Below are positions 708-15,294 of a stretch of DNA of 15,582 nucleotides, one piece after another. The notes beneath the pieces were generated by a model. That model was not told the origin of the DNA. It ran no database searches and saw only the letters and a program-made list of their open reading frames with translations. A program made the position numbers and the translations under genes. The stretch lies in assembly GCA_017514645.1 (NCBI GenBank), contig JAFWJP010000235.1:1-15582 (forward strand), read 5' to 3'. The first letter of the stretch is position 1; every line of letters starts with the position of its first letter. Source of the DNA: Solobacterium sp. Lineage in GTDB: Bacteria; Bacillota_I; Bacilli_A; Erysipelotrichales; Erysipelotrichaceae.

Positions 708-709
708 AA

Positions 710-1888
710 TTATTCCTCCCGGCCTGCGGCCTGATCGATTAAAGCATCCAGAACATCCGGCTCGGCATATCCCGGAATATACCCGAGGAAATTGCCGTCT
801 TCCTTCATAATGAATGTTGTCGGATATCCCTGGATACCGTAGTTGTAGGAAACCTGGAAATCATTGTCATAGAGTACTTCCATCGTGTATCCGTTATCCG
901 CCATCCACTGCTCAACGTACTCGACGCTTCCCTCATGGTTGAAGCCCGGTGCCGCGATCAGCAGGATCTTGACATCATCACGGTTCTCTTCCAGCCACTG
1001 CAGATGCGGCAGTTCCACCTTGCAGTACGTACACCAGGTACCGAAGAAGTTCAGCACGACCGCCTGTCCTTCATAATCCGAGAAGGATACCATCTCTCCC
1101 TGTCCGTTCTGCAGACGGAAATCATACAGGTGGATGTCATTCGCATCCGCAGGGACATCTGCTGTTTCCTGGCTGCTGTTCTGCCCCTGACGCTGTTCCA
1201 GAGCCTGTACCCGGATCATGCCCTGTGCCAGCAGATACACGCCCATGCCGAGAACCACCGCTGCGCCCAGTTTTGATGTCCACTTCACAATATTCATATG
1301 TTTCTTCAGAAGTGCCAGCACTTCATCCGTAAACAGGCCCAGAAGGATAAATACCAGAATAAAGCCCAGAGAATACGCACCGATATAGAACCAGCCGACC
1401 ATCGGTGACGGGCTCATTGCGGCAGCCGCAATCGCCGAAGCCAGCAGCGGACCGATGCACGGACTCCAGGCAAAACTGAAGAAGAAACCCATCAGATACG
1501 ATCTGCCGGCCGTCATCGTCTTCCGGGGATCAAACCCCGCCCGGTACTCCCGCTCCAGCAGCGGAATCCGGATCACGCCCATGGAAAACAGACCCAGCAG
1601 AATAAACAGGAAGCCGCCGATCAGCTGGAACATGATCTCATGGCGATTGAAAAACGCCCTCAGCGCATTCGAACCCATCCCGGCAAGAAAGAATACCGTA
1701 CAGATTCCCAGCACAAAGCAGAAGGTCATCGCGATCGTATGCCTGCGCCGTTTCCCCGGTGCCTCTTCTTCCCGTCCCGCCATCAGATAACCGATGTACA
1801 GCGGCACCAGCGGCAGCACACACGGCGAAAAGAAGGAAAGAAGACCTTCCACAAACAGACCGAACATTGCACCGACAGAACTTGTCAC
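710..1888 (-). CDS. CcdA-type thiol-disulfide transporter fused to a thioredoxin-like domain
   Basis: This 392-residue membrane protein joins two halves. Residues 8-225 are a CcdA/DsbD-type transmembrane unit with about six helices. Its paired intramembrane cysteines sit in FFSPCVLPL (C23) and AWSPCIGPLL (C144). Residues 250-392 are a TlpA/ResA-like thioredoxin domain with the active site WCTYC (C286, C289) and the cis-proline loop GYPTTF (P356). By family knowledge, the membrane part passes electrons from cytoplasmic thioredoxin to the extracytoplasmic domain, which reduces disulfides or supports redox repair outside the cell. Fusion removes the need for a separate partner. The start is a GTG with GGAG nine bases upstream; the next ATG, at codon 8, has no ribosome binding site. 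No haem or cytochrome c genes are adjacent, so cytochrome maturation is not implied. Confidence 0.9.
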   Translation of the reverse strand: MTSSVGAMFGLFVEGLLSFFSPCVLPLVPLYIGYLMAGREEEAPGKRRRHTIAMTFCFVLGICTVFFLAGMGSNALRAFFNRHEIMFQLIGGFLFILLGLFSMGVIRIPLLEREYRAGFDPRKTMTAGRSYLMGFFFSFAWSPCIGPLLASAIAAAAMSPSPMVGWFYIGAYSLGFILVFILLGLFTDEVLALLKKHMNIVKWTSKLGAAVVLGMGVYLLAQGMIRVQALEQRQGQNSSQETADVPADANDIHLYDFRLQNGQGEMVSFSDYEGQAVVLNFFGTWCTYCKVELPHLQWLEENRDDVKILLIAAPGFNHEGSVEYVEQWMADNGYTMEVLYDNDFQVSYNYGIQGYPTTFIMKEDGNFLGYIPGYAEPDVLDALIDQAAGREE

Positions 1889-1914
1889 TGAATAACACTC
1901 CGAAATTCTGACTC

Positions 1915-1920
1915 ATTATA
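1915..1920 (-). promoter_or_regulatory. Extended -10 element for the ccdA-like operon
   Basis: On the minus strand the sequence reads TGTTATAAT, a perfect TATAAT with the TG of an extended -10. Transcription would start about 20 nt before the GTG of the ccdA-like gene. No good -35 hexamer is present at the normal distance. The site lies in the short divergent gap shared with the LD-carboxypeptidase-like gene. Confidence 0.5.
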
Positions 1921-1974
1921 ACATAGACACCCGCACATCGATTCCGCTAATATATGACCAAGGAGAAAAAAACA

Positions 1975-2955
1975 ATGCAGTATCCCCCGTTTCTGAAACC
2001 GAATGACACGATCGGTGTTTCCGCACCCAGTGCCGGTGTCGGCCGAAAACTGGAATCCTTTGATCATTCCCTTACAGTACTGAAAAGACTATGGCGGATC
2101 AAGGAAACCGGCAGTGTTCGCGTCAATGCTGTACGCAGCGCCGATGCAGGAACCAGGGCTGAGGAATTCTGCAGCCTGTTCCCTGATCCGGAGGTATCTG
2201 CCGTCATGTGTGCCGCAGGCGGTGATTTCCTGTACGAGATCCTTCCGTACATTGACTGGAATACGATCACAGCCCATCCGAAGTGGATCATGGGAGCGTC
2301 CGACCCGACATCCCTGCTGTTCACAGCCACTGTGAAATATGATATCGCAACCCTGTACGGACACAATGCCGGCAGTTTTGACATGATACCGTTTCACCGT
2401 TCCCTGGAAGACTGTCTGCAGATCCTCCAGGGCAATCTGATCACCCAGATATCCAATGACCTGATCTCATCCGACCCGCCGTTCAGTGACGGTCCTCTGC
2501 ACTTTGATCAGCCATCCCGCTGGAACGGACCGGAGGAACTGCACGTTTCCGGCAGGTGCATCGGCGGCTGCATCGATGTGCTCAAGGATCTCATCGGAAC
2601 CCCGTATGCCGCAGTAGACACCTTCCTGGACCGGTATCCGGATGAGCGGACCATCTGGTACTTCGATGACTTCGCGCTCAGCGCAGAAACATTCTATCTT
2701 ACACTGCTGCAGATGAAATACGCCGGCTGGTTCCGGAACACTGCAGCCGTCATCATCGGCCGCGTCATCCTGCCGTCCTCCAATACCGGCATGACTTATG
2801 CCGAAGCGGCAGACCTTGCGCTTCAGGATATCCCGCATTACACGGAAGCCGATATCGGCCATACACCTGGAGCCATGACCATGATCAACGGCGCAGTCAT
2901 GAATCTGGATGTTTTCCAGGGAAAAGCGCATATTTCATTTGAACTGAGATCATAG
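1975..2955 (+). CDS. Peptidase S66 (LD-carboxypeptidase/MccF-like) protein
   Basis: The 326-residue product belongs to the S66 serine peptidases. These cleave LD-peptide bonds in cytoplasmic murein recycling (LdcA) or detoxify microcin C-type compounds (MccF). The nucleophile motif is IMGASDPTS, with Ser at residue 109. The C-terminal histidine motif is IGHTPGAMTMINGA (His 296), and the GGCIDVLKDLIGT segment is the usual linker. Where most members have Glu (FLED), this one reads YFDD, so the acid would be Asp 231; I take this as a subfamily trait. I chose the ATG at 1975 because AAGGAG lies nine bases before it. An in-frame ATG at 1954 is upstream of that site and has none of its own. The substrate cannot be told from sequence. 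The last codons overlap the tRNA promoter. Confidence 0.85.
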   Translation: MQYPPFLKPNDTIGVSAPSAGVGRKLESFDHSLTVLKRLWRIKETGSVRVNAVRSADAGTRAEEFCSLFPDPEVSAVMCAAGGDFLYEILPYIDWNTITAHPKWIMGASDPTSLLFTATVKYDIATLYGHNAGSFDMIPFHRSLEDCLQILQGNLITQISNDLISSDPPFSDGPLHFDQPSRWNGPEELHVSGRCIGGCIDVLKDLIGTPYAAVDTFLDRYPDERTIWYFDDFALSAETFYLTLLQMKYAGWFRNTAAVIIGRVILPSSNTGMTYAEAADLALQDIPHYTEADIGHTPGAMTMINGAVMNLDVFQGKAHISFELRS

Positions 2956-2968
2956 ACAGTGCTATAAT
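2939..2968 (+). promoter_or_regulatory. Promoter of tRNA-Ala
   Basis: TTGAAC (2939-2944) and a perfect TATAAT (2963-2968) are separated by 18 nt, ending 10 nt before the tRNA. The -35 element lies inside the last codons of the S66 peptidase gene, and its stop codon falls in the spacer. Confidence 0.6.
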
Positions 2969-2978
2969 CCCTATGCAT

Positions 2979-3054
2979 GGGGTTTTAGCTCAGCTGGGAG
3001 AGCGTCCGGTTCGCAATCGGAAGGTCGAGGGTTCGAATCCCTTAAGCTCCACCA
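2979..3054 (+). tRNA. tRNA-Ala (anticodon CGC)
   Basis: This is a complete 76-nt cloverleaf. The acceptor GGGGTTT pairs with AAGCTCC and includes the G3:U70 wobble, the identity element of alanine tRNA. The D stem is GCTC/GAGC. The anticodon stem is TCCGG/TCGGA with loop TTCGCAA, giving anticodon CGC, which reads GCG. The T arm is GAGGG-TTCGAAT-CCCTT. The discriminator base is A73, and CCA is encoded. A CGC alanine tRNA supplements the usual UGC species and fits a genome of moderate GC. It has its own promoter and terminator. Confidence 0.95.
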
Positions 3055-3063
3055 TGTAGAAGT

Positions 3064-3090
3064 AACAGGACTGACGGCAGTCCTGTTTTT
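3064..3090 (+). terminator. Intrinsic terminator after tRNA-Ala
   Basis: AACAGGACTG and CAGTCCTGTT form a perfect ten-base-pair stem around the loop ACGG. A run of T follows, then CTGTA. It would end the tRNA transcript and read-through from the S66 gene. Read on the minus strand the T run is poor, so it may serve the converging lipoprotein gene only weakly. Confidence 0.9.
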
Positions 3091-3095
3091 CTGTA

Positions 3096-3835
3096 TTACT
3101 CTTCCAGAAGATTCTTGTAGGTATCACTCCAGACGTACCATCTCCATCATACGGATCCTGTAATACATTCATGGACCGTTCTTCCTTCGTAACCGGGTTC
3201 GTAATATAAACCGTTTCGACATAGACATCCTTGCCGCTCACGATGGAATGCTGGGCAATGTTGGCGTTTTCATGCATGATGAGGTTGAAGGGCTGTTCGA
3301 TGTAGTAGGTGCTTTCACTGCCTGGTACAATGAACCAGTGGTCAATGAGCCTGTCCCTGCCTTCCGTGTCACCGAAGTACCGTTCCGCGTACACCAGCGG
3401 CATATTCGAGTAGTTTTCCGGCATGAGAGGAGAATTGAAGATCGCCTTCAGCATCTCCTCACAGATCTCCGGATGTTCTGGGTCCCACATCCTGTAAGCA
3501 CACAGGAGATTGTAAACAACATAATACTTCCCGTGGTCACCTGTCGTATCGATATAGGAATAGTCAGCCGCATTGTGCGCAAAGCGGTTGGCCGAAAGAA
3601 CAACTTCCTCAACATTCGCTTCATAGGTACCGGCACCTTTGGGATCCTGTGCCGTAGTCCTGGTCGTATATTCACTGATTTCTGTCTGGATTTCCTCCTC
3701 ATCAGATACCTGGAGGGTGAAGCCCGCAGAATGCTCTTCTGCGGATGGATTGTCGATTGGCGTTATTTCTTCCTTCGTACATCCGCTCAGCACCAGAGAG
3801 AGTATTTCCGGAATCACAAACAGTTTCCGGATCAT
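3096..3835 (-). pseudogene. Putative lipoprotein gene, apparently decayed (start lost, 3' frameshift)
   Basis: The product has a lipoprotein signal, MIRKLFVIPEILSLVLSGC, with lipobox LSGC (Cys 19). An acidic linker and a soluble domain of unrecognised family follow (AHNAADYSYIDTTGDHGKYY, PLVYAERYFGDTEGRDR). Two lesions are visible. First, the only strong ribosome binding site (AGGAGG, 3858-3863) is seven bases before an ACG codon (3848-3850), where an in-frame ATG is expected. The ATG at 3833-3835 used here is 22 bases from it. Second, after DPYDGD the frame runs through the terminator into the antisense of the tRNA, giving the well-known false tail VELKGFEPSTFRL down to 2990. A shift of one base near 3138-3149 instead gives WYVWSDTYKNLLEE and a TAA at 3096-3098. 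A sequencing error at either place is possible. An intact call would span 2990-3835. Confidence 0.6.
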
Positions 3836-3907
3836 TGGTGCATTCTTCGTTTTCTTTCCTCCTGAATCAGTATACCTGCATTGCGGCAGAACCGGTCAAA
3901 TGCCGGC

Positions 3908-4402
3908 TCATTTTACATAATGGATCCTGGTCCTGTCGAACCTGTCCTGCTGTTCTCTTTCTTCTGCCGGATAGCCGTATGCGAATATGGCAAATGCCCG
4001 CAGATTCTCCGGCAGACCGAGGATCTTTTCTACTGCCTGCATCTTGTGTTCTTCCGGCGCAATCCCGATCCATACACCGCCGAGTCCCTGCGCATCGGTC
4101 TCCAGCCACAGGTTCTCCAGCGCGATCGACATGTCGACCTGTGCATATAGCAGATGTCTGCAGTCTGTACGATATACCGGCACGATCGCTGCCGGGGCAT
4201 CTGCTGTCATGCCGGCGTAGGGACTCGCCTTGGCCAGTTCCTTCAGGATTTCCTTGTTCGTCACGACGTAGAATTCCCACGGCTGCTGGTTGGACGCCGA
4301 AGGTGCCTGCATGGCTGCTCTGAGGATCGCTTCTGTCTTTTCCGGTTCAACCGGTCTGTCCTGATATTTCCGGATGCTTACCCGGTGATAAATACTGTTC
4401 AT
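3908..4402 (-). CDS. Nitroreductase family protein (FMN-dependent)
   Basis: The 164-residue protein has the nitroreductase fold pattern. HRVSIRKYQDRPV (residues 6-18) holds the Arg-Ser-Arg FMN phosphate contacts. APSASNQQPWEFYVV (33-47) is the flavin loop. GLGGVWIGI is in the middle, and AFAIFAYGYP near the end is followed by RFDRTRIHYVK. Members reduce nitroaromatics, quinones or flavins with NAD(P)H; the true substrate here is unknown. It is at the short end of the family. The start is set by AAGGAG six bases upstream. It lies 52 nt after the short-chain dehydrogenase gene on the same strand with no terminator between, so the two are likely co-transcribed. I see no clear terminator after it. 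Confidence 0.88.
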   Translation of the reverse strand: MNSIYHRVSIRKYQDRPVEPEKTEAILRAAMQAPSASNQQPWEFYVVTNKEILKELAKASPYAGMTADAPAAIVPVYRTDCRHLLYAQVDMSIALENLWLETDAQGLGGVWIGIAPEEHKMQAVEKILGLPENLRAFAIFAYGYPAEEREQQDRFDRTRIHYVK

Positions 4403-4454
4403 ACTCTTCTCCTTTGTGTTATCAGAATCTCATTCAGCGTATTGATGAGCTGTT

Positions 4455-5222
4455 TTATTCCAGTGTCCAGCCGCCGTCGATCAGCTGGACCGTTCCTGTA
4501 ACCATGGATGACGCATCACTCAGGAAATAGATGACTGCTGCCGCAACATCGGCAATCGTTCCCAGACGCTCAAGAGGGATCTTTGCCAGAATGCTCTGCC
4601 GGAATGCCGGATCATCCAGCCGCTCTGCCGTCCCCGGTGTATAGACGAATGTCGGCGCGATGGCATTGACGTTGATGTTGTCCGGTGCCCATTCTGCAGC
4701 CAGTACCTTTGTCAGCATATTTACACCGCCCTTGGAGGCACAGTAGACGCTTTCATTCCGGATCGCGGCCGTACCGGCCTGGGAAGACATCATGCAGATC
4801 TTTCCTCCCCCGCTCTTCCGCATGCTCGCTGCAGCAGCCTGTGCAAAGAAGAAGCTGCCCTTCAGATTGAGATCCATCATCTCATCCCAGTCGGCTTCCG
4901 TCACATCGTAGGCAGGTATGGGATTTCCCATACCGGCGTTGCTGAAAAGCCCGTCGATCCTGCCGTAAGCAGCTTCAATCTCCGCGACACAGGCACGGAT
5001 GCTGTCAATACTCCGCAGATCTGCTGTAAATACATCTGCCTTCCCGCCTGCTTCCTCGATTTCCTTTCTGCAGGTATCCAGAAGTGCTTCCGAGCGGGCA
5101 ACCAGGGCAACACGGGCACCTGCTCCCGCAAGTTCTTTGGCAACGCCGTATCCGATTCCTCTGCTCGCACCGGTGACGATGATGTTCTTGTTCTTCAGAG
5201 AGAAACTGTCGAGTAAAGACAT
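4455..5222 (-). CDS. Short-chain dehydrogenase/reductase (classical SDR)
   Basis: This 255-residue protein is a classical SDR with all key motifs. The Rossmann cofactor loop is TGASRGIG (residues 17-24), with NAG at 95-97 and Asn 119 in the active-site helix. The catalytic Ser is in MMSSQAG (146-147), and YCASK supplies Tyr 160 and Lys 164. The C-terminal end (TGTVQLIDGG) is typical of FabG/glucose dehydrogenase-like members. The basic residue R21 within the cofactor loop and R43 after the second strand suggest NADP(H), but this is inference. The substrate cannot be named. AGGAGG lies seven bases before the ATG. The downstream nitroreductase gene is probably in the same operon, which would give a two-gene reductase unit. 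Confidence 0.92.
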   Translation of the reverse strand: MSLLDSFSLKNKNIIVTGASRGIGYGVAKELAGAGARVALVARSEALLDTCRKEIEEAGGKADVFTADLRSIDSIRACVAEIEAAYGRIDGLFSNAGMGNPIPAYDVTEADWDEMMDLNLKGSFFFAQAAAASMRKSGGGKICMMSSQAGTAAIRNESVYCASKGGVNMLTKVLAAEWAPDNINVNAIAPTFVYTPGTAERLDDPAFRQSILAKIPLERLGTIADVAAAVIYFLSDASSMVTGTVQLIDGGWTLE

Positions 5223-5269
5223 ATGGCAACCTCCTCTGCATTTCCGTATGCATTCCGATCGTTGGTTTT

Positions 5270-5275
5270 ATTATA
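5270..5275 (-). promoter_or_regulatory. Probable -10 element for the SDR-nitroreductase operon
   Basis: The minus strand reads CATATATAATAAAA, with a perfect TATAAT about 47 nt before the start codon. No convincing -35 is seen at 16-18 nt. The rest of the 176-nt divergent gap up to the aldo/keto reductase gene holds nothing else I can support. Confidence 0.4.
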
Positions 5276-5398
5276 TATGAATCACAGGGACATATTCCTG
5301 CCTGCAGGTGTGTGTCTTCACCAGCGGATCACATTTTCATACAGGAATACACTGACACTTGATAAAATAGGTTCAGGACAGAGTACAAGGAGGTACCT

Positions 5399-6586
5399 AT
5401 GATCTATCGTGATTTCCAAGGTCTTTCGTTATCCATGCTGGGATTCGGAACCATGCGCCTGCCGCTGAAGGAAGACGGTTCCATCAACGAAGAACTGGTC
5501 GCCGAAATGACAGACTACGCTCTCAGTCACGGAATCAACTACATCGACACTGCCTGGCCGTACATGAACAATCGTTCGGAATCGGTCATGGGACGTGTTC
5601 TCGCCAAATACCCGCGGGACAACTATTACCTGGCTACGAAGTATCCCGGTCATATGATCGCGGAGACGTATGATCCTGCCGATGTCTTTGAACGTCAGCT
5701 GAAGAAGTGTCAGACTGATTACTTTGACTTCTATCTGCTGCACAATGTCTATGAAAACTCGATCCAGGTCTATGAAGATCCGAAATGGGGTATCATCGAC
5801 TATTTCCTGGAACAGAAGAAAAACGGCCGGATCAAGCACCTCGGCTTCTCTTCCCATGGAGATATTCCCCTGCTGAAGGAATTCCTCGATAAATACGGAG
5901 ACGAAATGGAATTCTGTCAGATCCAGATGAACTATCTGGACTGGAAACTGCAGAAAGCAGATGAAAAATACAGGATCCTGACCGAGAGAAACATCCCTGT
6001 CTGGGTCATGGAACCGCTTCGCGGCGGTAAACTGGCATCACTGGAAGAAGATCAGTTGGCCCAGCTGCATGCACTTCATGACGGCAGTGCGGCTTCCTTC
6101 GGTTTCCGCTGGATGCAGCAGTTCCCGAACGTCACCATGGTCCTGTCCGGCATGTCCGCCATGGATCAGATGGTCGACAACATCAATGCCTTCGATCATG
6201 AAGATCCGACAAGTGCTGAAGAAAACAAGGCGCTGGCTGACATTGCGGCTTCCATGACCGATCTGATCCCCTGCACTGCCTGCCGTTACTGCTGTGACGG
6301 CTGTCCGATGGGCCTGGATATCCCGGATCTGCTGCACAAGTACAACCAGCTGCGCGGTGGTGCAGGAAGTACTGTCGCAATGCAGCTGGATGCTCTGCCG
6401 GATGACAAGCTTCCTTCTGCCTGCATCGGCTGCGGTGCCTGCGCCGCGGTATGCCCGCAGAGGATCGCAATCCCGGATGAACTGGCAAAGTTCACAGAGG
6501 AACTGAACAAGCTTCCCCGCTGGGCTGATATCTGCAAAGCCCGGGCAGAAGCAGAAAAGAAGGCCAGAGAAGAAGAAAACGCCTGA
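5399..6586 (+). CDS. Aldo/keto reductase with C-terminal di-cluster 4Fe-4S domain
   Basis: The 395-residue protein is an aldo/keto reductase barrel (about residues 1-285) with the usual catalytic tetrad: Asp 50 and Tyr 55 (NYIDTAWPY), Lys 81 (ATKYP) and His 115 (YLLHN). A ferredoxin-like tail follows. Cysteines 292, 295, 298, 299 and 302 are in PCTACRYCCDGCP, and 342, 345, 348 and 352 are in CIGCGACAAVCP, enough for two 4Fe-4S clusters. This architecture is common in anaerobes and suggests electron exchange with ferredoxin-type partners, but no substrate is established. The ribosome binding site AAGGAGG is five bases before the ATG, and a possible -10, TAAAAT, lies at 5363-5368. It ends in a Lys/Glu-rich helix. 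A hairpin begins at its last codons, and the riboswitch unit starts directly after it. Confidence 0.92.
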   Translation: MIYRDFQGLSLSMLGFGTMRLPLKEDGSINEELVAEMTDYALSHGINYIDTAWPYMNNRSESVMGRVLAKYPRDNYYLATKYPGHMIAETYDPADVFERQLKKCQTDYFDFYLLHNVYENSIQVYEDPKWGIIDYFLEQKKNGRIKHLGFSSHGDIPLLKEFLDKYGDEMEFCQIQMNYLDWKLQKADEKYRILTERNIPVWVMEPLRGGKLASLEEDQLAQLHALHDGSAASFGFRWMQQFPNVTMVLSGMSAMDQMVDNINAFDHEDPTSAEENKALADIAASMTDLIPCTACRYCCDGCPMGLDIPDLLHKYNQLRGGAGSTVAMQLDALPDDKLPSACIGCGACAAVCPQRIAIPDELAKFTEELNKLPRWADICKARAEAEKKAREEENA

Positions 6587-6600
6587 TTGACTTCAGGCGT
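6579..6600 (+). other. Hairpin spanning the stop codon of the aldo/keto reductase gene
   Basis: ACGCCTGA (6579-6586, ending in the TGA stop) pairs with TCAGGCGT (6593-6600) around the loop TTGACT. There is no T run, so it is not a standard terminator. It may protect the 3' end of the message. The loop is also the likely -35 of the next promoter. Confidence 0.5.
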
Positions 6601-6615
6601 CCGGGAAGATACAAT
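6587..6615 (+). promoter_or_regulatory. Promoter of the riboswitch-controlled gene
   Basis: TTGACT (6587-6592) and TACAAT (6610-6615) are exactly 17 nt apart, a near-consensus housekeeping promoter. The expected start, near 6621-6622, falls at the 5' edge of the aptamer, so the leader has almost no extra sequence before P1. Confidence 0.65.
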
Positions 6616-6618
6616 GAA

Positions 6619-6710
6619 CTCACCATAAAGAGTCAGGCGAGAGACAAGCTCTGTGACCCTGCAGCAACCCTTCCTTCCGGAAGAAGGTGCTAAAGCTTGG
6701 ATGATGGGAG
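6619..6710 (+). ncRNA. SAM riboswitch aptamer (SAM-I/SAM-IV clan)
   Basis: The conserved core of SAM riboswitches is recognisable: CTGCAGCAACCC, a short P3 hairpin (arms near 6667-6674 and 6681-6688), then AAGGTGCTAAAGC. P2 is closed by GTCA (6632-6635) with TGAC (6654-6657) and contains a hairpin AGAG/CTCT. P1 can form between CTCACCAT (6619-6626) and ATGGGAG (6704-6710) with one bulged A. There is no P4 hairpin after the GGTGCTAA segment, which is more like the SAM-I/IV variant than a standard S-box. The strand 6704-6710 of P1 also belongs to an 11-bp antiterminator, so ligand binding should favour termination. It is the only control element seen for the 103-residue gene. The family is clear to me; the exact subclass is less sure. 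Confidence 0.78.
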
Positions 6711-6758
6711 AGGATCTTTACATGCGCATGAACTCCCGTCATCACGATGGGAGTTTTT
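6700..6758 (+). terminator. Riboswitch expression platform: antiterminator and intrinsic terminator
   Basis: The terminator is AACTCCCGTC (6731-6740) paired with GATGGGAGTT (6746-6755) around ATCAC, followed by a T run. GATGATGGGAG (6700-6710) can instead pair with CTCCCGTCATC (6733-6743) over 11 bp with one G-U, which blocks the terminator. The antiterminator strand overlaps the 3' strand of P1, giving the two exclusive folds of an OFF switch. Confidence 0.85.
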
Positions 6759-6798
6759 CATTTGACTCTCTTTATGGCAGACATAAGGAGGAAAACAC

Positions 6799-7110
6799 AT
6801 GCCGATTATCAGAATTACCCCGAAACGCCCTGTCAGAGAGGAATACGCTGCGTATCCCGAACTTGTACAGATCTACCACCAGTACGACATCTATGCCGAA
6901 GACTACCTGAACAAGGAGGACAGTGAACAGAGCAGGATCGCCGCAAAGAACAGTTACTGCCAGGATCTCGTTCTGTCCCGGATGAATGAAGAGGAGTTCC
7001 GGGAACTGCTCCGTTCCTGTGACGGATTCATCGCTCAGGGAAAAGCTGACATTGCCCGCCGCTACCGCCGGATCAAGGAGATCACTTCCCTGATGCCGGA
7101 AGACGAATGA
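6799..7110 (+). CDS. Unrecognised 103-residue protein under SAM-type riboswitch control
   Basis: I do not recognise this family. The protein is soluble and highly charged, with no signal peptide, membrane segment or cysteine pair (one Cys near residue 54 and one near 74). It starts MPIIRITPKRPVREEY and looks mainly helical, with a Tyr-rich patch (YPELVQIYHQYDIYAEDYL) and an Arg/Lys-rich helix near the end (ADIARRYRRIKE). AAGGAGG lies seven bases before the ATG. A strong promoter and a SAM-type riboswitch with terminator precede it, and its own terminator follows, so it is a single-gene unit. Riboswitch control suggests a link to methionine or S-adenosylmethionine supply, but the sequence gives no mechanism. 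It is a real gene on grounds of start signals, length and flanking control elements. Confidence 0.8.
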   Translation: MPIIRITPKRPVREEYAAYPELVQIYHQYDIYAEDYLNKEDSEQSRIAAKNSYCQDLVLSRMNEEEFRELLRSCDGFIAQGKADIARRYRRIKEITSLMPEDE

Positions 7111-7113
7111 ACC

Positions 7114-7144
7114 GAAAGGATCCCGTGAAGGGATCCTTTCTTCT
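7114..7144 (+). terminator. Intrinsic terminator of the 103-residue gene
   Basis: GAAAGGATCCC and GGGATCCTTTC form a perfect 11-bp stem around GTGAA, followed by TTCT. It starts 3 nt after the stop codon and faces the terminator of the phn operon on the other strand. Confidence 0.88.
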
Positions 7145-7150
7145 GTACAG

Positions 7151-7176
7151 AAAAAGCACCGGTCTCCCGGTGCTTT
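7151..7176 (-). terminator. Intrinsic terminator of the phnC-phnE-phnE operon
   Basis: On the minus strand AAAGCACCGG pairs with CCGGTGCTTT around GAGA, followed by a T run and CTGTACA. It lies 5 nt after the stop of the second permease gene. Confidence 0.9.
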
Positions 7177-7181
7177 GATGA

Positions 7182-8003
7182 TCAGTTTGCTTTTCCTCTT
7201 GCGAGTCTGTTGCGGATCTTTGTAGAGGCGTATTCGATGATCAGAACGAGGATGATCAGTGCCAGCAGGAATGCACCGACATTGGACCATCTTCCGTAGG
7301 TGATCGACTGCACCAGCGGAGAACCGATGCCGCCTGCACCAACGATACCCAGTGTCGTCGCGTCCTTCAGGTTGATATCGAAACGGTAGATCGCCGTGGA
7401 AATGAAGCTTGCGCTCAGCTGCGGGAGAATACCTACACGGACCTTCTGGAAGGTATTGCAGCCGGCAGCGTCCAATGACTCCAGAATGCCCGTATCCAGA
7501 TCTTCAATTGCCGTAATGTACATCTTGGAGATCATGCCGATCGAACATACCGACTGTGTTACAACACCGCAGAAGGCACCCGGTCCGGTCACGCGGATCC
7601 ACACCAGTGCCCAGATCATAGACGGAATGGTACGGATCATCAGGATCAGAGCCCGGAAAAAATACGCAACCGGTTTCGGTACAATGTTCGTCGACGCCAG
7701 GAAACTGAACGGTACAGCCAGAATGGCACCGAAGATGGTTCCCAGCACAGCGATTGCGATCGTCTGCAGAACCAGGAACGGAACACCGGAATCACCCAGA
7801 TCGAACAGCAGTTCCTTGTTCGGGTGGAAAATACCATGTACGATACCGCTCGCAATACCGATACCCTTTTCCGTCATGCCGGGATAGTGAATGGAACCGC
7901 TGCCCCATACCACCAGAGCCAGGATCACCAGGAAGATCAGCACACGTTTCCAGAAGTTTTTTGGTTCAGCCTGAAGCTGTTCCATGACTGTCAGTTCTGT
8001 CAT
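7182..8003 (-). CDS. phnE: Phosphonate-type ABC transporter permease (second PhnE)
   Basis: This 273-residue membrane protein is a PhnE-family permease. It has an N-terminal helix (about 20-35), then about five membrane segments across the BPD_transp_1 domain. The cytoplasmic EAA-type loop is ESLDAAGCNTFQKVRVGILP, and the family end motif is DATTLGIVGAGGIGSPL. Two different permeases encoded side by side form the channel in many PhnCDE-type importers. AGGAGG overlaps the stop of the first permease gene, and only 11 nt separate the genes, so they are co-translated. The neighbours (PhnC ATPase, PhnE) support the call. The ligand could be phosphonate, phosphite or another small anion. No phosphonate-degrading enzymes are in the window, so the ligand is not settled. 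Confidence 0.9.
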   Translation of the reverse strand: MTELTVMEQLQAEPKNFWKRVLIFLVILALVVWGSGSIHYPGMTEKGIGIASGIVHGIFHPNKELLFDLGDSGVPFLVLQTIAIAVLGTIFGAILAVPFSFLASTNIVPKPVAYFFRALILMIRTIPSMIWALVWIRVTGPGAFCGVVTQSVCSIGMISKMYITAIEDLDTGILESLDAAGCNTFQKVRVGILPQLSASFISTAIYRFDINLKDATTLGIVGAGGIGSPLVQSITYGRWSNVGAFLLALIILVLIIEYASTKIRNRLARGKAN

Positions 8004-8014
8004 AGTGCCACCTC

Positions 8015-8857
8015 CTAGGAAATCTTCGAACGAATATAATCGTTCAGAAGATCGATCAGGAATACAACGATGAACAAGGTCAGCAGGACCATGCCCAGAT
8101 CACTGTATGCCCGCAGTCCCGTACGTTCACGGATCAGGACACCGAGTCCTCCCGCACCGACATATCCAAGGATCGTCGACGCACGTACATTCAGTTCAAA
8201 GCAGTACAGGCAGTCATCAATGTAGGTCGGCAGAATCTGCGGCATGCATGCCGTCCAGAATGCCTGCAGCGTACTTGCACCGAATGATGTCATTGCCTCA
8301 TACGGCTTCATATCAATGGTCTCAATGCTCTCATACAGCATCTTCGCTACAATACCGATGGTAAAGAACGCAATCGCGATCGTACCGGCAAACGTTCCCA
8401 GATCGAACACCAGCGTCAGGATGGACGCATAGATCAGCGTCGGAATGGAACGCATCAGAGACAGGATAAACCGGATGAACAGCAGAACCGGATGGTTGCT
8501 GTTGATATTGCTTGATGCCAGGATCGAAAGCGGCAGACCGATCACGCATCCGACAACCGTACCGACGATCGACATCTTGATCGTATCGATCAAAGGACTG
8601 ACGACCTTCGGGAAATACGCGAAGTTCGGATGAAAGATCTGACCGAGGATGACCTTCAGCTGTCCTGCCCGGCTGATGATCGTTGCCAGATTGAACCCCG
8701 TTGCCCGCAGGGATACCCAGATCACCAGTACAAGACAGGCAATGATCAGAGGGATCCGGCTTCTCGGGCGGTCGATCTCATGACCATTGTTCAGAACGAT
8801 GTGTTCCGGCTTGATGATCTGGTCGAACAAGGGAAGTTTTCTGCCCGCTTCACTCAT
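8015..8857 (-). CDS. phnE: Phosphonate-type ABC transporter permease (first PhnE)
   Basis: This 280-residue permease has an N-terminal helix (about 34-52) and a conserved channel domain. The motifs are GCVIGLPLSILASSNI, the EAA-like loop PYEAMTSFGASTLQAFW and ASTILGYVGAGGLGVLI, which are diagnostic of PhnE. It is homologous to the next permease, but the two differ clearly in sequence, so this is an old duplication. Its ATG overlaps the end of the ATPase gene by eight bases (ATGAGTGA), a sign of translational coupling. It should form a heterodimeric membrane channel with the second permease and be driven by the PhnC-like ATPase. Substrate identity is as uncertain as for the rest of the system. 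Confidence 0.9.
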   Translation of the reverse strand: MSEAGRKLPLFDQIIKPEHIVLNNGHEIDRPRSRIPLIIACLVLVIWVSLRATGFNLATIISRAGQLKVILGQIFHPNFAYFPKVVSPLIDTIKMSIVGTVVGCVIGLPLSILASSNINSNHPVLLFIRFILSLMRSIPTLIYASILTLVFDLGTFAGTIAIAFFTIGIVAKMLYESIETIDMKPYEAMTSFGASTLQAFWTACMPQILPTYIDDCLYCFELNVRASTILGYVGAGGLGVLIRERTGLRAYSDLGMVLLTLFIVVFLIDLLNDYIRSKIS

Positions 8858-9659
8858 TCTCTGTTACCTCGGCGATTTCTTCAGCGTCCGCTTCGGTCAC
8901 GATATCCGTGGACTTCGGAACCGCCTTTCCGTTATAGACCTGATCCAGGACTGCATCCGTCACCTTGTCAGCCGGTCCGTCATAGACGATCTCACCGGCA
9001 CGGACACCGATGACACGTGTTGCGTATTTCAGCGCCAGGTCAACGTGGTGGATATTCAGCAGGATTGAAATATTCATTTCCTTGTTGATCTTGGCAAAGT
9101 CGCTCATGACGACATCCGCCATGATCGGGTCCAGGGAAGCGACCGGTTCATCCGCCAGGATGATCGTCGGATTCTGGGCCAGTGTTCTTGCCAGCGCAAC
9201 TCTCTGCATCTGTCCGCCGGAAAGCTCATCACAGCGGTGATATGCCTTATCAAGGATGTTGACCTTGTCCAGGGCTTCCAGCGCCTTGATCTTCTGTTCC
9301 TGGGAATAGATCCCGAAGAAAACCTTGTACCAAGGCATATCAGGCACATTGCTCGAGAGAACATTCTTGATGACAGAAGCCCTCGATACCAGGTTGAATG
9401 ACTGGAAGATCATGCCGATTTTCCGGCGGAAGCGTCTCAGATCCTTCCCCTTCAATGTCATAACGTCGGTTCCGTCAACGATCAGCTGACCTTCCGTAAT
9501 ATCGATCATTCTGTTGATCGTACGGATCAATGTCGATTTACCGGCACCTGAAAGGCCGATGATCGCCACAAACTCTCCCTGATCGATCTGAAGGTTGATA
9601 TGTTTCAGACCTTTGGTTCCGTTCGGGTATGTTTTGGATACATCCTTGAATTCAATCAT
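8850..9659 (-). CDS. phnC: Phosphonate-type ABC transporter ATP-binding protein
   Basis: This 269-residue ABC ATPase has Walker A GLSGAGKST (35-43), the Q-loop MIFQSFNLV (83-91), the signature LSGGQMQRVALARTL (146-160), Walker B IILADEP (166-172) and the switch His in NIHHVDLA (204-205). The family-typical segment between Q-loop and signature, with RASVIKNVLSSNV, places it in PhnC rather than general amino-acid ATPases. A Glu/Asp-rich tail (TEADAEEIAEVTENE) extends past the core. It is the first gene of the phnC-phnE-phnE operon and energises uptake through the two permeases. GGAG lies nine bases before the ATG. The binding-protein gene is not in this operon but about 1.1 kb upstream. Confidence 0.93.
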   Translation of the reverse strand: MIEFKDVSKTYPNGTKGLKHINLQIDQGEFVAIIGLSGAGKSTLIRTINRMIDITEGQLIVDGTDVMTLKGKDLRRFRRKIGMIFQSFNLVSRASVIKNVLSSNVPDMPWYKVFFGIYSQEQKIKALEALDKVNILDKAYHRCDELSGGQMQRVALARTLAQNPTIILADEPVASLDPIMADVVMSDFAKINKEMNISILLNIHHVDLALKYATRVIGVRAGEIVYDGPADKVTDAVLDQVYNGKAVPKSTDIVTEADAEEIAEVTENE

Positions 9660-9685
9660 AATTGCGGTCTCCGTTTCACCCTTTT

Positions 9686-9701
9686 ATTGTATTTGCAAAT
9701 A
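9686..9701 (-). promoter_or_regulatory. Possible -10 and 12-bp palindrome before phnC
   Basis: On the minus strand TACAAT (9686-9691) could be a -10 about 27 nt before the start codon of phnC. It overlaps a perfect palindrome, TATTTGCAAATA (9690-9701), which could be a repressor site. There is no good -35, so the promoter call is weak. Confidence 0.3.
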
Positions 9702-9768
9702 TCTGTTTACGCTATAGAAAATAAAGCCATCAGCGCAAATCGCAGGCATTCCATCCGTTGTTTGAACG

Positions 9769-9774
9769 TATAAT
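9769..9774 (+). promoter_or_regulatory. Probable -10 of the C_GCAxxG_C_C gene
   Basis: A perfect TATAAT stands 62 nt before the start codon at 9836. No clear -35 lies at 17 nt, so the call rests on the -10 alone. Confidence 0.4.
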
Positions 9775-9791
9775 GAAAGAAAGAGAACAGT

Positions 9792-9815
9792 GATCATGCC
9801 ATGCCGGGCATGATC
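9792..9815 (+). promoter_or_regulatory. Leader hairpin next to a ribosome binding site
   Basis: GATCATGCC and GGCATGATC form a perfect nine-base-pair stem around ATGCCG. The stem ends 6 nt before the GGGAGG of the C_GCAxxG_C_C gene. No T run follows, so it is not a terminator. It may stabilise the message or affect translation. Confidence 0.5.
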
Positions 9816-9835
9816 CGGACAGGGAGGTAATCATA

Positions 9836-10288
9836 ATGGCAGAAAAAATGACAGCTGAGCGCGCGTTTGAGCTCACCAGTGGACAGGGATTCCACTGTTC
9901 ACAGGTCGTCGTCATGCACGGATGCGAAGTGCTGGGAATGGACAAGGATCTTCTTCTCAAGGTTTCCGGCGGTTTCGGAGGCGGATGCTTCCACGGTGAT
10001 ATCTGCGGCGCAGTGACAGGCGCGTTGATGATGCTGGGTGCAGTCTACGGCTACAACCAGCCCGGCCAGAAAGAGCAGAATGCGATCCTCGTCGGCAAGA
10101 TCCGGGAATTTGAAAAGAGATTCGAAGAGAAGTACGGTGCACTTACCTGCACGGCTCTGCTCGGCGGCTACAACATCTCCATTCCTGAACAGGCAAAGAT
10201 CATCATGGAACAAGGTCTGAACAAGAACTGTCCTGCCATGATCGCCGGCGCCTGTGACATCCTGGATGATATGCTGGCGGAAAAATAG
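9836..10288 (+). CDS. C_GCAxxG_C_C family (putative redox) protein
   Basis: The 150-residue protein has the cysteine pattern that names this family: FHCSQ (Cys 21), GC at 30, then GGGCFHGDICGAVTGA with Cys 51 and Cys 57. LTCTALLGG (Cys 105) and NCPAMIAGACDIL (Cys 132 and 140) follow. The conserved cysteines suggest a metal or redox centre, and related proteins are often associated with oxidoreductases, but no reaction is established. The length is normal. GGGAGG is eight bases before the ATG. The gene stands alone, on the opposite strand to the phn genes around it, with its own likely promoter, a leader hairpin and a terminator. Confidence 0.88.
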   Translation: MAEKMTAERAFELTSGQGFHCSQVVVMHGCEVLGMDKDLLLKVSGGFGGGCFHGDICGAVTGALMMLGAVYGYNQPGQKEQNAILVGKIREFEKRFEEKYGALTCTALLGGYNISIPEQAKIIMEQGLNKNCPAMIAGACDILDDMLAEK

Positions 10289-10299
10289 TCCTGTACAGA

Positions 10300-10325
10300 A
10301 AAAGAGACCCTGCGGTCTCTTTTAT
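10300..10325. terminator. Bidirectional terminator between converging genes
   Basis: AAAAGAGACC (10300-10309) and GGTCTCTTTT (10314-10323) form a ten-base-pair stem around CTGC. T-rich sequence follows on the plus strand, and TTTTTCTGTACA follows on the minus strand. It can serve both the C_GCAxxG_C_C gene and the zinc-ribbon gene. Confidence 0.85.
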
Positions 10326-10365
10326 TATTGTCTGATCGGTTTTCCGGTCTTTCCGTGCCGGATCG

Positions 10366-10629
10366 CTACACTTTTTTCTTTACTTTTCTGTCGGTATCCA
10401 GTGCCCGCTTGCAGTCCGGACAGACATGATCATATATGCCGACTGTATGCCCGCAGTACGGACAGACCATAAAGCGCATGGAAAACACCAGCTGCACCAG
10501 CAGACTGACTCCGGCCAGCACTGCCATCAGGATCCGGTACCGGGAGGACAGCGTCAGCATCAGGAAAACCAGACCCAGCGTTACCATATACAGAATATCG
10601 GATATTTTCCTCGCTGTTTTAAGATTCAT
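10366..10629 (-). CDS. Small membrane protein with two helices and a zinc ribbon
   Basis: This 87-residue protein has two probable membrane helices (about 12-28 and 32-50). A short cytoplasmic zinc ribbon follows, with CPYC (Cys 56 and 59) and CPDC (Cys 70 and 73), and a very basic tail (DTDRKVKKKV). I do not recognise a named family. Such small ribbon-plus-helix proteins are common in Firmicutes and usually unassigned. The ribosome binding site is modest (AGGG). It lies between the phnD terminator and the shared terminator at 10300, so it is probably transcribed alone. The balanced motifs and ordered topology make it a believable gene despite its size. No function is proposed. Confidence 0.7.
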   Translation of the reverse strand: MNLKTARKISDILYMVTLGLVFLMLTLSSRYRILMAVLAGVSLLVQLVFSMRFMVCPYCGHTVGIYDHVCPDCKRALDTDRKVKKKV

Positions 10630-10697
10630 ATGTTTCCCTATGGTTCAGAATATACCACGTTCCTGTTTCCTGCACCAGTCCGGAATCCAGCGTGCAC

Positions 10698-10729
10698 AGA
10701 AAAAGCAGCCATACTGTGTATGACTGCTT
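10698..10729 (-). terminator. Intrinsic terminator of phnD
   Basis: On the minus strand AAGCAGTCATAC pairs with GTATGGCTGCTT around ACA, with one G-U pair, followed by TTTTTCTGTGCA. The same site on the plus strand would have a C-A mismatch, which supports minus-strand use. Confidence 0.85.
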
Positions 10730-10742
10730 CGTGATGTACAGA

Positions 10743-11819
10743 TTACTCCAGAACCTTCAGAGCTGCACGTGCACCATCGTAGTCGGAATCGACGGAAGGC
10801 GCATAGCCTGTGTGGGAGTAAACACCGAAGATCTCAGCACCCTTCTCTGTGTTGATGATGTTGATCAGGCTCTCCTGCAGAGCTGCCTTGAACTCATCGT
10901 TGTAGATGTTCGGGTTAGCCTTTGTTACAGCAACTGTATCGTTGTAGATACCGTCTGTGACACCGATGACATTCAGTTCGTTCCAGATGGAATCACCGTC
11001 AACACGGTTCAGTCCGGAATGACCTGTTTCATACTGCTGGTCAGCCGGCAGGTTCCAGGAAGCTTCGTAGTCGTTACGACCGTCCGCATAGCAGACGATG
11101 ATGTCAACCTGCTCGTTTGCAGCAGCCTGGAAAGCAGCCTTGTAGCCGTCCATTGTGATGACCTTCTGCTGGTCGAGGTCTGTCAGCTTCTTGCCGTCAT
11201 AGTTCTCCATGAGCCAGAGTGTCGGATAGATGTAGCCTGCAGAGCTTGTTACGTTCATAACAGCCCACTTTGCCTGATACAGATCATCCCATGTCAGAGC
11301 TTCATGATTGTTGACCTTTTCAGCCAGAACCTTACCGTACTCGGAAGGTGTAGCGTAGATCAGCGCACGGTAGTAAGTGACCTGCGGACCGTTCTTCAGT
11401 GTAGCGTTCTCGTCACCGTTCCATGTCCAGGGATCTGTGGAATCGTTGGACAGACCGTTACGTGTCGCTGTCAGAATAACTTCAGACTCATCGGAATACA
11501 GCGCATAAGTGCCGCCCGGCAGCCATGCAACATCGATGGAACCAGCAGACAGAGCCTCACCGGCAGCCTCATAGGTATCGCTGACCGTGATCTCTACATT
11601 GCCGATCGTGTAGCCCTTTTCAGCCATCTCGTCGATAACGAGCTGACCCAGATCCTTTGTACCGGTGATGATCTCACCCGGATCTCTGGAAGGGACAAAC
11701 TGGAAACGCAGTGTTTCGATTTCCTTGCTGGCTTCATCGCTTGTCTCAGGTTCGCCGCTTGCGCAGCCGACCAGAAGAGACAGTGCTGCAGCACTCAGTG
11801 CAATCTTCTTAAAGTTCAT
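10743..11819 (-). CDS. phnD: Phosphonate-type ABC transporter substrate-binding lipoprotein
   Basis: This 358-residue lipoprotein has the signal MNFKKIALSAAALSLLVGC (Cys 19 in LVGC), then an acidic linker. The PhnD-like periplasmic-binding domain follows. Family marks are LRFQFVPSRDPGEI at the start, SAGSIDVAWLPGGTYAL for the first lobe loop, and TSSAGYIYPTLWLMENY with the later AANEQVDIIVCYADG. These proteins deliver phosphonate, phosphite or related ligands to PhnE. The pocket residues cannot be judged by eye, so the ligand is open. AGGAGG is six bases before the ATG, and a good promoter and a terminator make it a single-gene unit. It is the only binding protein near the phnC-phnE-phnE operon and presumably serves it. 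Confidence 0.88.
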   Translation of the reverse strand: MNFKKIALSAAALSLLVGCASGEPETSDEASKEIETLRFQFVPSRDPGEIITGTKDLGQLVIDEMAEKGYTIGNVEITVSDTYEAAGEALSAGSIDVAWLPGGTYALYSDESEVILTATRNGLSNDSTDPWTWNGDENATLKNGPQVTYYRALIYATPSEYGKVLAEKVNNHEALTWDDLYQAKWAVMNVTSSAGYIYPTLWLMENYDGKKLTDLDQQKVITMDGYKAAFQAAANEQVDIIVCYADGRNDYEASWNLPADQQYETGHSGLNRVDGDSIWNELNVIGVTDGIYNDTVAVTKANPNIYNDEFKAALQESLINIINTEKGAEIFGVYSHTGYAPSVDSDYDGARAALKVLE

Positions 11820-11830
11820 TTCTTTCCTCC

Positions 11831-11844
11831 TGTGTTAAAACACA
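11831..11844 (-). promoter_or_regulatory. Inverted repeat at the expected phnD transcription start
   Basis: TGTGTT and AACACA face each other across two bases. They cover about +1 to +14 of the predicted phnD transcript, just before AGGAGG. The position suits an operator or a small mRNA hairpin. No known regulator is matched. Confidence 0.35.
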
Positions 11845-11850
11845 AGGACA

Positions 11851-11880
11851 ATTATATAAGAGTTTTTTTTGAAATGGCAA
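11851..11880 (-). promoter_or_regulatory. Promoter of phnD
   Basis: On the minus strand TTGCCA (11875-11880) and a perfect TATAAT (11851-11856) are 18 nt apart, with an A-rich spacer. The expected start is near 11844, about 25 nt before the start codon. Confidence 0.6.
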
Positions 11881-11902
11881 ACAATCTGTATCATGGAAAC
11901 GT

Positions 11903-11937
11903 TTTTTCACAATTCCGTTCTTCTGTATCGTGAAAAA
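11903..11937. repeat. Inverted repeat upstream of phnD
   Basis: TTTTTCAC (11903-11910) and GTGAAAAA (11930-11937) are perfect eight-base arms 19 nt apart. They lie between the phnD promoter and the end of the hydrolase operon. The left arm overlaps an AAACGTTT palindrome. The function is unknown. Confidence 0.4.
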
Positions 11938-11961
11938 CAGCAGCCTTTCCGCCAAAGAAAA

Positions 11962-11986
11962 TGAGAAAGTTTACAGAACTTTCTCA
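11962..11986 (-). terminator. Intrinsic terminator of the pepC operon
   Basis: TGAGAAAGTT and AACTTTCTCA form a perfect ten-base-pair stem around a five-base loop, followed on the minus strand by TTTTCTTT. The first three bases of the stem are the stop codon of the hydrolase gene. Confidence 0.85.
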
Positions 11987-12784
11987 CATTTTCAGAAATG
12001 ACAGGATCCTCTGCTTGTAATCCGGAGCTGTTGAGAATGCCGCGTGTCCGTATCCTTTGTACAGATAGACATGATCCTTCGGAGGCAGATCCAGCAGTTC
12101 CGCGATCTCCATCGTATCATCCGTATCCAGGACTGCATCTTCATAGGCACCCATGACCAGCACCGGGCACCGGATACTGTTCAGTTCCCCCGAAATATCA
12201 AATCCCCGCATTCCCTTTGCATAGATCAGGAACCTGCGGAATTCCTCCTCCGTGACGGTCTTTCCGGCTTCATGCAGCTGTTCCCTGACCTGTTCATAGA
12301 CATCTGCAGGATAGATCTTTCTCCCGAAGTCCGCAAACAGCCCGGTACCGTCGCGCTCTTCCGCCAGACGGATCCAGTGCTCAATAACCGGTTCATATGC
12401 ATCCACACGTGACGTCGTCGATCCCAGCACGAGTTTTCCCACCAGTTCCGGATACTCCGCCGCAATGACCTGCGCGATCATCCCTCCCTGGGATGCTCCG
12501 AAGAGACAGACCCCGGACAGACCGAGTTCCTTCATTGCCTGCGCAGTGTCATGCGCCATATCCCGTACGCTGTAAGCGTTCGGCGGATCTTCCCGGCGAT
12601 CGAACACGCAGACGGTGTATTCAGCAGTAAAGGCTGCGTAATCCTCCGCAATGGCATCCGCGTCGTTCATCACGCTTTTTACGCTCAGGCCAGGCAGGAT
12701 CACAAATACTCTGCTGCCGCTGCCGAAGCGGAACCAGCGCATACAGAAGCGGTCTGTCCGCAGTGTTTCAATCGTGATGCTCAT
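11984..12784 (-). CDS. Alpha/beta hydrolase
   Basis: The 266-residue protein is an alpha/beta-fold hydrolase. The nucleophile elbow is FGASQGGM (Ser 98). The acid is probably Asp 216 in MGAYEDAVL, and the base is His 247 in KGYGHAAF. FVILPGLSV near residue 30 is the oxyanion-hole strand. The reaction class (ester, amide or other) cannot be set from sequence. I chose the ATG at 12784 because GGAGG lies nine bases upstream; in-frame starts further upstream lie deep inside the preceding gene. It overlaps the end of the lipoprotein gene by 17 nt, so it is the last gene of a tightly coupled pepC-lipoprotein-hydrolase operon, closed by a terminator that includes its stop codon. Confidence 0.87.
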   Translation of the reverse strand: MSITIETLRTDRFCMRWFRFGSGSRVFVILPGLSVKSVMNDADAIAEDYAAFTAEYTVCVFDRREDPPNAYSVRDMAHDTAQAMKELGLSGVCLFGASQGGMIAQVIAAEYPELVGKLVLGSTTSRVDAYEPVIEHWIRLAEERDGTGLFADFGRKIYPADVYEQVREQLHEAGKTVTEEEFRRFLIYAKGMRGFDISGELNSIRCPVLVMGAYEDAVLDTDDTMEIAELLDLPPKDHVYLYKGYGHAAFSTAPDYKQRILSFLKM

Positions 12785-13835: not shown

Positions 13836-13837
13836 GA

Positions 13838-15142: not shown

Positions 15143-15164
15143 AATACTGCCTCGCTCTGTCATC

Positions 15165-15170
15165 ATTATA
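15165..15170 (-). promoter_or_regulatory. Probable -10 of the pepC operon
   Basis: On the minus strand TATAAT stands 22 nt before the pepC start codon, so the leader would be short. No good -35 hexamer is seen 17 nt upstream. Confidence 0.45.
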
Positions 15171-15193
15171 GTATGAATCAATCTGTCTCTGTG

Positions 15194-15241: not shown

Positions 15242-15294
15242 GAACAAGCATTATAGAATTTAAGTAACAGAAATCATAAGGAGGAAATAATAAT

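Follow-up and report, generated by a model that had tools for sequence, protein, structure and literature searches.

SAM-I riboswitches are regarded as feedback regulators of methionine and S-adenosylmethionine (SAM) genes; what does such an RNA control when the gene behind it encodes a single small protein of no assigned family? The question is raised by a stretch of 15,582 nucleotides (nt) from Solobacterium sp. (contig JAFWJP010000235.1 of assembly GCA_017514645.1, positions 1 to 15,582 of the forward strand), analysed here as a whole and called the window. A preliminary description, made from the letters alone, had seen in it a promoter, a SAM-type aptamer, a mutually exclusive antiterminator/terminator pair and a 103-residue gene with a strong ribosome binding site, and had found the target unusual. 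The unit is a SAM-clan riboswitch detached from methionine genes, and two traits go beyond that description: the P4 helix is absent, and a second alternative pairing might mask or release the Shine-Dalgarno (SD) sequence. With slightly better than even confidence, we read the locus as a stand-alone one-gene SAM-sensing unit with a two-gate OFF switch. Its features are the following.

6587 to 6615, forward strand: promoter TTGACT-17-TACAAT, found by sequence scan; its -10 box ends 7 nt before the CCAT of P1.
6619 to 6710, forward strand: SAM-I aptamer matching Rfam family RF00162; the functional core is probably 6623 to 6707.
6623 to 6626, forward strand: 5′ strand of P1, CCAU, pairing with 6704 to 6707; together with J1/2 and the start of P2 (to 6632) the proposed anti-sequestor strand.
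6645 to 6649, forward strand: P2-loop CAAGC, pseudoknot partner of GCUUG at 6695 to 6699, read from the sequence.
6700 to 6710, forward strand: 3′ region of P1 and 5′ strand of the predicted antiterminator, pairing with 6733 to 6743.
6730 to 6760, forward strand: intrinsic terminator with a U-rich tail (stem 6730 to 6756), by scan and folding.
6767 to 6791, forward strand: SD-sequestor hairpin, predicted to hide the SD sequence AAGGAGG (6785 to 6791); its 5′ arm includes CUCUUUAUGG.
6768 to 6777, forward strand: anti-SD strand CUCUUUAUGG, the exact reverse complement of CCAUAAAGAG at 6623 to 6632 (10 of 10 base pairs, bp).
6799 to 7110, forward strand: open reading frame (ORF) of 103 codons behind the SD sequence AAGGAGG, encoding an orphan small helical protein of a genus-restricted family.
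7115 to 7139, forward strand: inverted repeat AAAGGATCC/GGATCCTTT just 3′ of the gene, read by eye.

The SAM-type assignment of the preliminary description is borne out by the Rfam search. RF00162, a model of the SAM clan, scores 51.0 bits (gathering score 44.4; E 2.2e-09 over the whole window), and after clan competition it is the sole Rfam match in 6550 to 6810 up to E 1. SAM-I/IV (RF01725) is not the best model of the clan in the window; it was reported solely for five metK leaders, all under its cut-off. In the Rfam alignment of the window, the 18 consensus positions of P4 are shrunk to 1. The P4 helix of the usual SAM-I four-way junction is common and variable in length, and it is not part of the Rfam score rule for RF00162. 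The window aptamer, as judged from its sequence, is a P4-less variant scored by Rfam as SAM-I, hereafter type B. Comparisons were made on 23 type-B leaders, 12 from the genus and 11 from 13 other loci without MetK that were recovered with a 31-base pattern of the riboswitch; left out were L157, whose contig ends within the aptamer, and L140, in which the SD sequence adjoins P1 and no separate platform exists. Genomes, loci and contigs carry labels beginning with G, L and C, the window's own genome being G000. The pocket motifs J1/2 AGAG, GCAACC and GGTGC, which presumably contact SAM, are all found in the window and occur in 23, 21 and 23 of the 23 leaders, respectively. CCAT and GGTGCTAA are likewise present in every leader, as are the pseudoknot halves CAAGC and GCTTG, judged by complementarity alone. 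The distance from the pseudoknot to the 3′ strand of P1 is exactly 4 nt in 23/23, so that type B has no P4 helix, and its P1 core amounts to about 4 bp.

Upstream of the aptamer, the promoter announced by the preliminary description is present and begins ahead of position 6610, where that description let the unit start. It matches 10 of 12 consensus bases; one was found against a mean of 0.5 in shuffled sequences, which is weak alone. With the -10 box ending 7 nt ahead of P1, the expected transcription start lies at P1 or right beside it. A -10-like hexamer ends 7-8 nt before CCAT in 11 of the 12 genus leaders, the hexamer being the best one picked by script from a short stretch and the -35 boxes scoring 1-3 out of 6 in 10 of the 12; the scan of the G006 and G020 leaders did not find a full promoter. 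Downstream, the terminator stretch (6729 to 6760) folds at z -4.7, and the antiterminator (6700 to 6710 with 6733 to 6743) consists of 11 consecutive pairs, one of them G-U (duplex test p 0.010). This duplex overlaps both the P1 3′ strand and the terminator 5′ arm and hence excludes both, in agreement with the exclusive pair described earlier; the P1-3′ duplex is significant in 14 of the 23 type-B leaders. The inverted repeat behind the gene is a possible 3′ end of a one-gene transcript, judged by eye; the scan of the window does not list 7115 to 7139 as terminator-like. The -35 box TTGACT is also the loop of another inverted repeat, ACGCCTGA/TCAGGCGT (6577 to 6602), at the end of the aldo-keto reductase gene, which the scan scored as terminator-like on the minus strand.

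The second gate concerns access to the SD sequence. The strand CCAUAAAGAG spans the P1 5′ strand, J1/2 and the start of P2, and its exact complement lies within the arm that hides the SD sequence. The sequestor hairpin reaches -11.4 kcal/mol (z -4.3), with 0 of 200 shuffles as stable, and the window SD is unpaired with a probability of 0.05. Across the leaders, the P1 5′ strand pairs with sequence further downstream in the leader better than in dinucleotide shuffles in 17/23 (p<0.05), and at least three SD pairing partners fall in the P1-5′ complementary site in 14 of 21 leaders (L134 and L152 were dropped from this set, having no assigned start codon). The hexamer TTATGG, the complement of CCAU plus two bases, occurs in 10 of the 23 leaders against 0.34 expected, and after removal of near-duplicates in 6 of 18 against 0.23. 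The P2-side letters of the site vary between lineages, and the pairing is often kept (A-U or C-G, columns 11 and 13). Four leaders, those of G006, G019, G020 and G085, have no visible terminator yet retain the SD gate; scans of the G006 and G020 leaders found no terminator between riboswitch and gene. The match of the P1 5′ strand to the SD-hiding strand suggests a two-gate OFF switch.

In such a switch, RNA polymerase would begin at P1 or beside it. At high SAM, folding of the aptamer would close P1, the antiterminator would be lost and the terminator would halt most transcripts. The closed P1 would also occupy its own 5′ strand, and in the transcripts that escape, the anti-SD strand would pair with the SD sequence and block the ribosome. 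When SAM is scarce, P1 would open; its 3′ strand would form the antiterminator, and its 5′ strand with J1/2, the A/G-rich letters of which would mimic the SD sequence, would capture the anti-SD strand and free the SD. The small helical protein would thus be made at low SAM, together with MetK, whose gene lies behind a separate SAM-type leader. Should both gates operate, a single aptamer would govern two distinct blocks, one through each strand of P1, with the conserved J1/2 serving as an SD mimic, an arrangement that would illustrate how riboswitches gain tightness and new regulons.

Several observations weigh against the second gate. The P1-5′ complement is without significance in 6/23 leaders: no significant match is present in G021, G081 and L146, and the matches of G061, G092 and G075 fall short of p<0.05. 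No SD partner lies within the P1-5′ site in 5 of the 21 leaders, SD hiding exceeds that of shuffled upstream sequence at p<0.05 in just 10 of the 21, and the TTATGG of G075 sits in the terminator, not at the SD. The leaders are also not independent, as they include sets of four, two and two near-identical sequences. For the window RNA, the ON (double-ON) state came out at -54.1 kcal/mol and the OFF state at -54.0 kcal/mol, both within 2 kcal/mol of the minimum free energy; the unconstrained minimum itself (-55.7 kcal/mol) retains the SD hairpin, and the P1-5′ pairing is missing from it. These energies were computed without pseudoknot, ligand or co-transcriptional terms and therefore neither show nor exclude the ON state. 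Some of the complementarity could be a by-product, since an anti-SD strand is rich in C and U and the letters of J1/2 look like an SD sequence.

Taken further, these points lead to an ordinary SAM-I transcription attenuator, in which the SD hairpin and the P1 match would be incidental. Such a reading fits the strong terminator and antiterminator of the window, the significant P1-3′ duplex in 14 leaders, the 6 leaders without a significant P1-5′ complement and the survival of the SD hairpin in the unconstrained fold. It does not account for the four genomes that have the SD hairpin and the P1 complement yet no terminator, nor for the enrichment of TTATGG, which persists after de-duplication, and we regard it as rather doubtful.

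The two-gate arrangement can be set beside known systems. With SAM-I (S-box, RF00162) the window shares a score over the cut-off, the P1-P3 layout, J1/2 AGAG, the GCAACC...GGTGC core, the pseudoknot between P2-loop and J3/4, and the use of the P1 3′ strand as antiterminator; type B differs in the absent P4, the short P1 core and the non-methionine target, and in a P1 5′ strand that apparently also controls the SD. Dual platforms are described, in the sections of Barrick and Breaker (2007, PMC2258182) that were consulted, as having the ribosome binding site inside the 3′ side of the terminator; there, too, the ligand-bound state blocks transcription and translation, but in type B the terminator and the SD hairpin are separate and each is proposed to stand under a different P1 strand. 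According to the excerpted text of PMC7270179, the met operon of Xanthomonas campestris is under a translational SAM-I riboswitch, and apart from it, SAM-I riboswitches that have been characterised functionally work through terminators. That riboswitch acts on SD access and is terminator-less like the leaders of G006, G019, G020 and G085; it differs in controlling met genes, in sensing initiator tRNA as well and in having no terminator gate. A 2026 covariation study reports, in the portion cited here, that aptamer and platform do not covary significantly in its RF00162 model (PMC13273304); among open-access papers, which are the literature covered by our statements on novelty, a subtype that conserves a second platform would thus be new. 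In that literature we found neither a SAM-I riboswitch without P4 nor an SD gate that uses the P1 5′ strand beside a separate terminator, nor any SAM-I target from the 103-residue protein family.

Which product is controlled was approached through a profile of the protein family, searched in 315 genomes of the order, 70 of which belong to the genus. Matches at E<=0.01 occur in 14 genomes. In 11 they are strong (E<1e-7), and all 11 belong to the window's genus (11/70). Type B stands directly upstream in 11/11 of these, so that the homologs lie next to SAM riboswitches, as a functional tie between the two in the preliminary description would lead one to expect. The three weak matches are in G011, G009 and G039. 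The G011 protein (L110, 1498 to 1746, on G011:C1; E 3.7e-4) is probably a distant relative, with a profile comparison of 93%, and no aptamer was seen when its upstream DNA was read by eye; it is the sole exception to the linkage and counts against it. Those of G009 (E 0.0067) and G039 (E 0.0013) lie inside long frames and were set aside as probable chance matches, as were G068 and G087 (E 0.01-0.03). Contig C92 of G004 begins with another strong, partial match, whose upstream DNA is therefore out of view.

The same linkage appears when the genus is searched from the RNA side. RF00162 gives 46 matches in 41 of the 70 genomes: 32 are canonical leaders, all preceding metK, 2 precede a divergent 340-residue MetK (G013 and G086), and 12 are type B. 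Eleven of the 12 precede the protein family, the G092 copy having a broken frame and the G081 copy running off its contig. The twelfth, in G075, precedes an 80-residue protein that matches the C-terminal half of the 164-residue family member of G021 (34% over 83 columns, E 5e-12), which means that two proteins under one riboswitch subtype are fused in another species. One SAM-I subtype is thereby tied to a single-genus protein family, and the riboswitch is the sole functional clue to the protein.

The protein itself is real and elusive. The ratio of nonsynonymous to synonymous substitution rates (dN/dS) among four close homologs (six pairs) is 0.19-0.25, indicating purifying selection and therefore a genuine protein-coding gene at 6799 to 7110, which upholds the 103-residue gene of the preliminary description. 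A single-sequence search found 4 proteins among 5.8 billion, and a 12-row profile search 14, the two with names being from Solobacterium and Erysipelotrichaceae. For the window protein, searches of Pfam (best E 0.049), NCBIfam (best E 0.051) and PDB sequences gave nothing convincing, and those of PHROGs and PADLOC gave no match; the best PADLOC match of seven tested proteins reaches 14.5 bits (E 0.0027, the G090 protein). Family members are helical and mostly of 83-105 residues, and the window protein is 24-34% identical to the other subgroups, with few invariant residues (V23, H27, L59, M62 and L70, besides M1). No membrane segment is apparent by eye, and the confident, helical AlphaFold2 model (predicted local distance difference test 87.6, predicted template modelling score 0.79) gave no convincing structural match in the fold search. 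The family occupies eight sites, and shared neighbours occur solely within the set G006, G019, G020 and G085 and the pair G061 and G092; between the eight sites there is one other neighbour match, of 41 columns at 32%, in a comparison of ORFs of at least 80 residues in the fetched stretches, where several contigs end close to the gene. A PPK2-like gene downstream in G006, G019, G020 and G085, named by eye, is specific to that set.

Could the protein have a place in sulfur or SAM metabolism, as an enzyme or transporter subunit that has escaped recognition? SAM-I targets are normally of that kind, and the 32 metK genes behind the canonical leaders of the genus follow this pattern. A small, helical family with so little identity between subgroups, few invariant residues, no apparent membrane segment, no shared metabolic neighbours and no convincing fold match argues against such a role, which we hold to be unlikely. 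Given its small size, its fast evolution and the absence of metabolic neighbours, our best guess, made with low confidence, is that it serves as a small regulator or adaptor during SAM shortage. The protein should be made when SAM is low, and SAM shortage may then signal something besides making more SAM.

That the target is unusual, as the preliminary description had remarked, is underlined by the metK genes. Eleven of the 12 type-B genomes carry a metK with its own SAM-type leader; no metK was found in G081. The leaders of G004, G061, G075, G090 and G092 are over the cut-off or listed in the RF00162 search, and the remaining ones are sub-threshold (37.2 bits in G021; 29.3-30.6 bits, E 0.38-0.74, in G000, G006, G019, G020 and G085) and show 84-88% identity to metK leaders from other species. 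In the window's own genome, the metK leader (L084, on G000:C303) scores 29.8 bits with SAM-I/IV against a cut-off of 41.1 (E 0.56) and is 84% identical to the G060 metK leader and at most 66% to type B; the idea that G000 has one SAM riboswitch alone was rejected on account of this sub-threshold SAM-clan match. By eye, it seems to be P4-less too. Counts based on Rfam cut-offs overlook SAM-clan metK leaders such as L084 in the genus. Second metK copies exist in G075 (L081, on C52) and G090 (L082, on C64); no SAM leader was reported for them, and their upstream DNA is almost identical, a near-identity across two species that may reflect recent transfer or contamination.

In a wider search, the 31-base pattern matches 40 loci among the genome contigs of GTDB, every one of them labelled Erysipelotrichaceae, Solobacterium, Clostridiales, Clostridia, Bacillota or Firmicutes, and has no match in the viral contigs searched. 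By eye, 16 of the 40 stand before the divergent MetK, 11 belong to the genus leaders counted above, and 13 remain; of these 13, 10 have a different readable gene behind them, no gene is assigned to L134 and L152, and L157 breaks off within the aptamer. An N-formylglutamate amidohydrolase lies behind four loci (PF05013 at E 6e-28 in L127; a frame of just 64 residues in L124), and several other targets are small unknown proteins. Searching eleven of those genomes brought up additional copies, which stand before metK, before a DUF362 gene and before a sigma/HTH_16 gene. Loci L124, L127, L136, L151, L167 and L179 thus have type-B-like leaders before N-formylglutamate amidohydrolase, DUF362 or sigma/HTH_16 genes, far from methionine metabolism; no open-access paper was found to pair 'N-formylglutamate' and 'riboswitch'. 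The divergent 340-residue MetK stands behind type-B-like leaders in L119, L120, L121, L125, L137, L141, L154 and others, and in G013 and G086, where it scores 302.9 and 301.9 bits against a TIGR01034 cut-off of 309.4. Kinship between the 103-residue family and the 213-residue type-B target of L172 found no support (hhalign probability 0.3%). Tentatively, and with clearly less than even confidence, the P4-less SAM-I lineage may be seen as a portable two-gate SAM sensor of gut Firmicutes, whose targets would for the most part lie outside methionine metabolism, being a shifting range of small lineage-specific proteins, with two families fused in one species, and some others such as the N-formylglutamate amidohydrolase, DUF362 and sigma/HTH_16 proteins, and for which SAM shortage would be a general cell-state signal read through the SD mimic in the aptamer.

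Targets of this kind could also be explained if type B were a SAM-clan aptamer with a changed ligand, for example a polyamine or S-adenosylhomocysteine. Spermidine-sensing SAM-I variants with polyamine genes downstream are described in the passages of PMC10853860 drawn on here; J1/2 and the P3 internal loop are changed in them, and like type B they place a SAM-I scaffold before non-methionine genes. The missing P4 and the mixed genes behind type B would fit a ligand change, as would the GCAGCC that replaces GCAACC in the P3 pocket of L064 (G090) and L050 (G075), a natural change at a presumed ligand-contact position. Type B nevertheless mostly keeps the letters that the spermidine variants have altered, with J1/2 AGAG intact throughout and GCAACC in all but those two leaders; similar aptamers precede the MetK homolog at 16 of the 40 pattern loci, and the window score exceeds the SAM-I cut-off. 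A changed ligand appears quite improbable, and SAM is the probable ligand of the unit.

A portable selfish or defence cassette, for which a drop in SAM, as caused by phage SAM-cleaving enzymes, would be the alarm, is very improbable: it would suit a one-gene unit of a fast-evolving family that is found patchily at eight sites with next to no shared neighbours, but the window protein has no PADLOC or PHROG match, the riboswitch pattern is absent from the viral contigs, and the variety of sites may be ordinary synteny loss.

The genes next to the unit offer no further hint. A function taken from the adjoining phn-type transporter was rejected, there being no apparent link to the gene: a PhnE homolog at E<=1e-60 occurs in 29 of the 70 genus genomes, and among these 29 loci only that of the window has the 103-residue gene or the aldo-keto reductase within the stretch of at most 1.5 kb retrieved on each side (tblastn alignments over 60 columns, three loci being shortened by contig ends). 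The phn-type ABC transporter set itself occupies 7182 to 11819 on the reverse strand of the window, and inside it, on the opposite strand, 9836 to 10288 (forward) encodes a redox-type protein with the motif C_GCAxxG_C_C.
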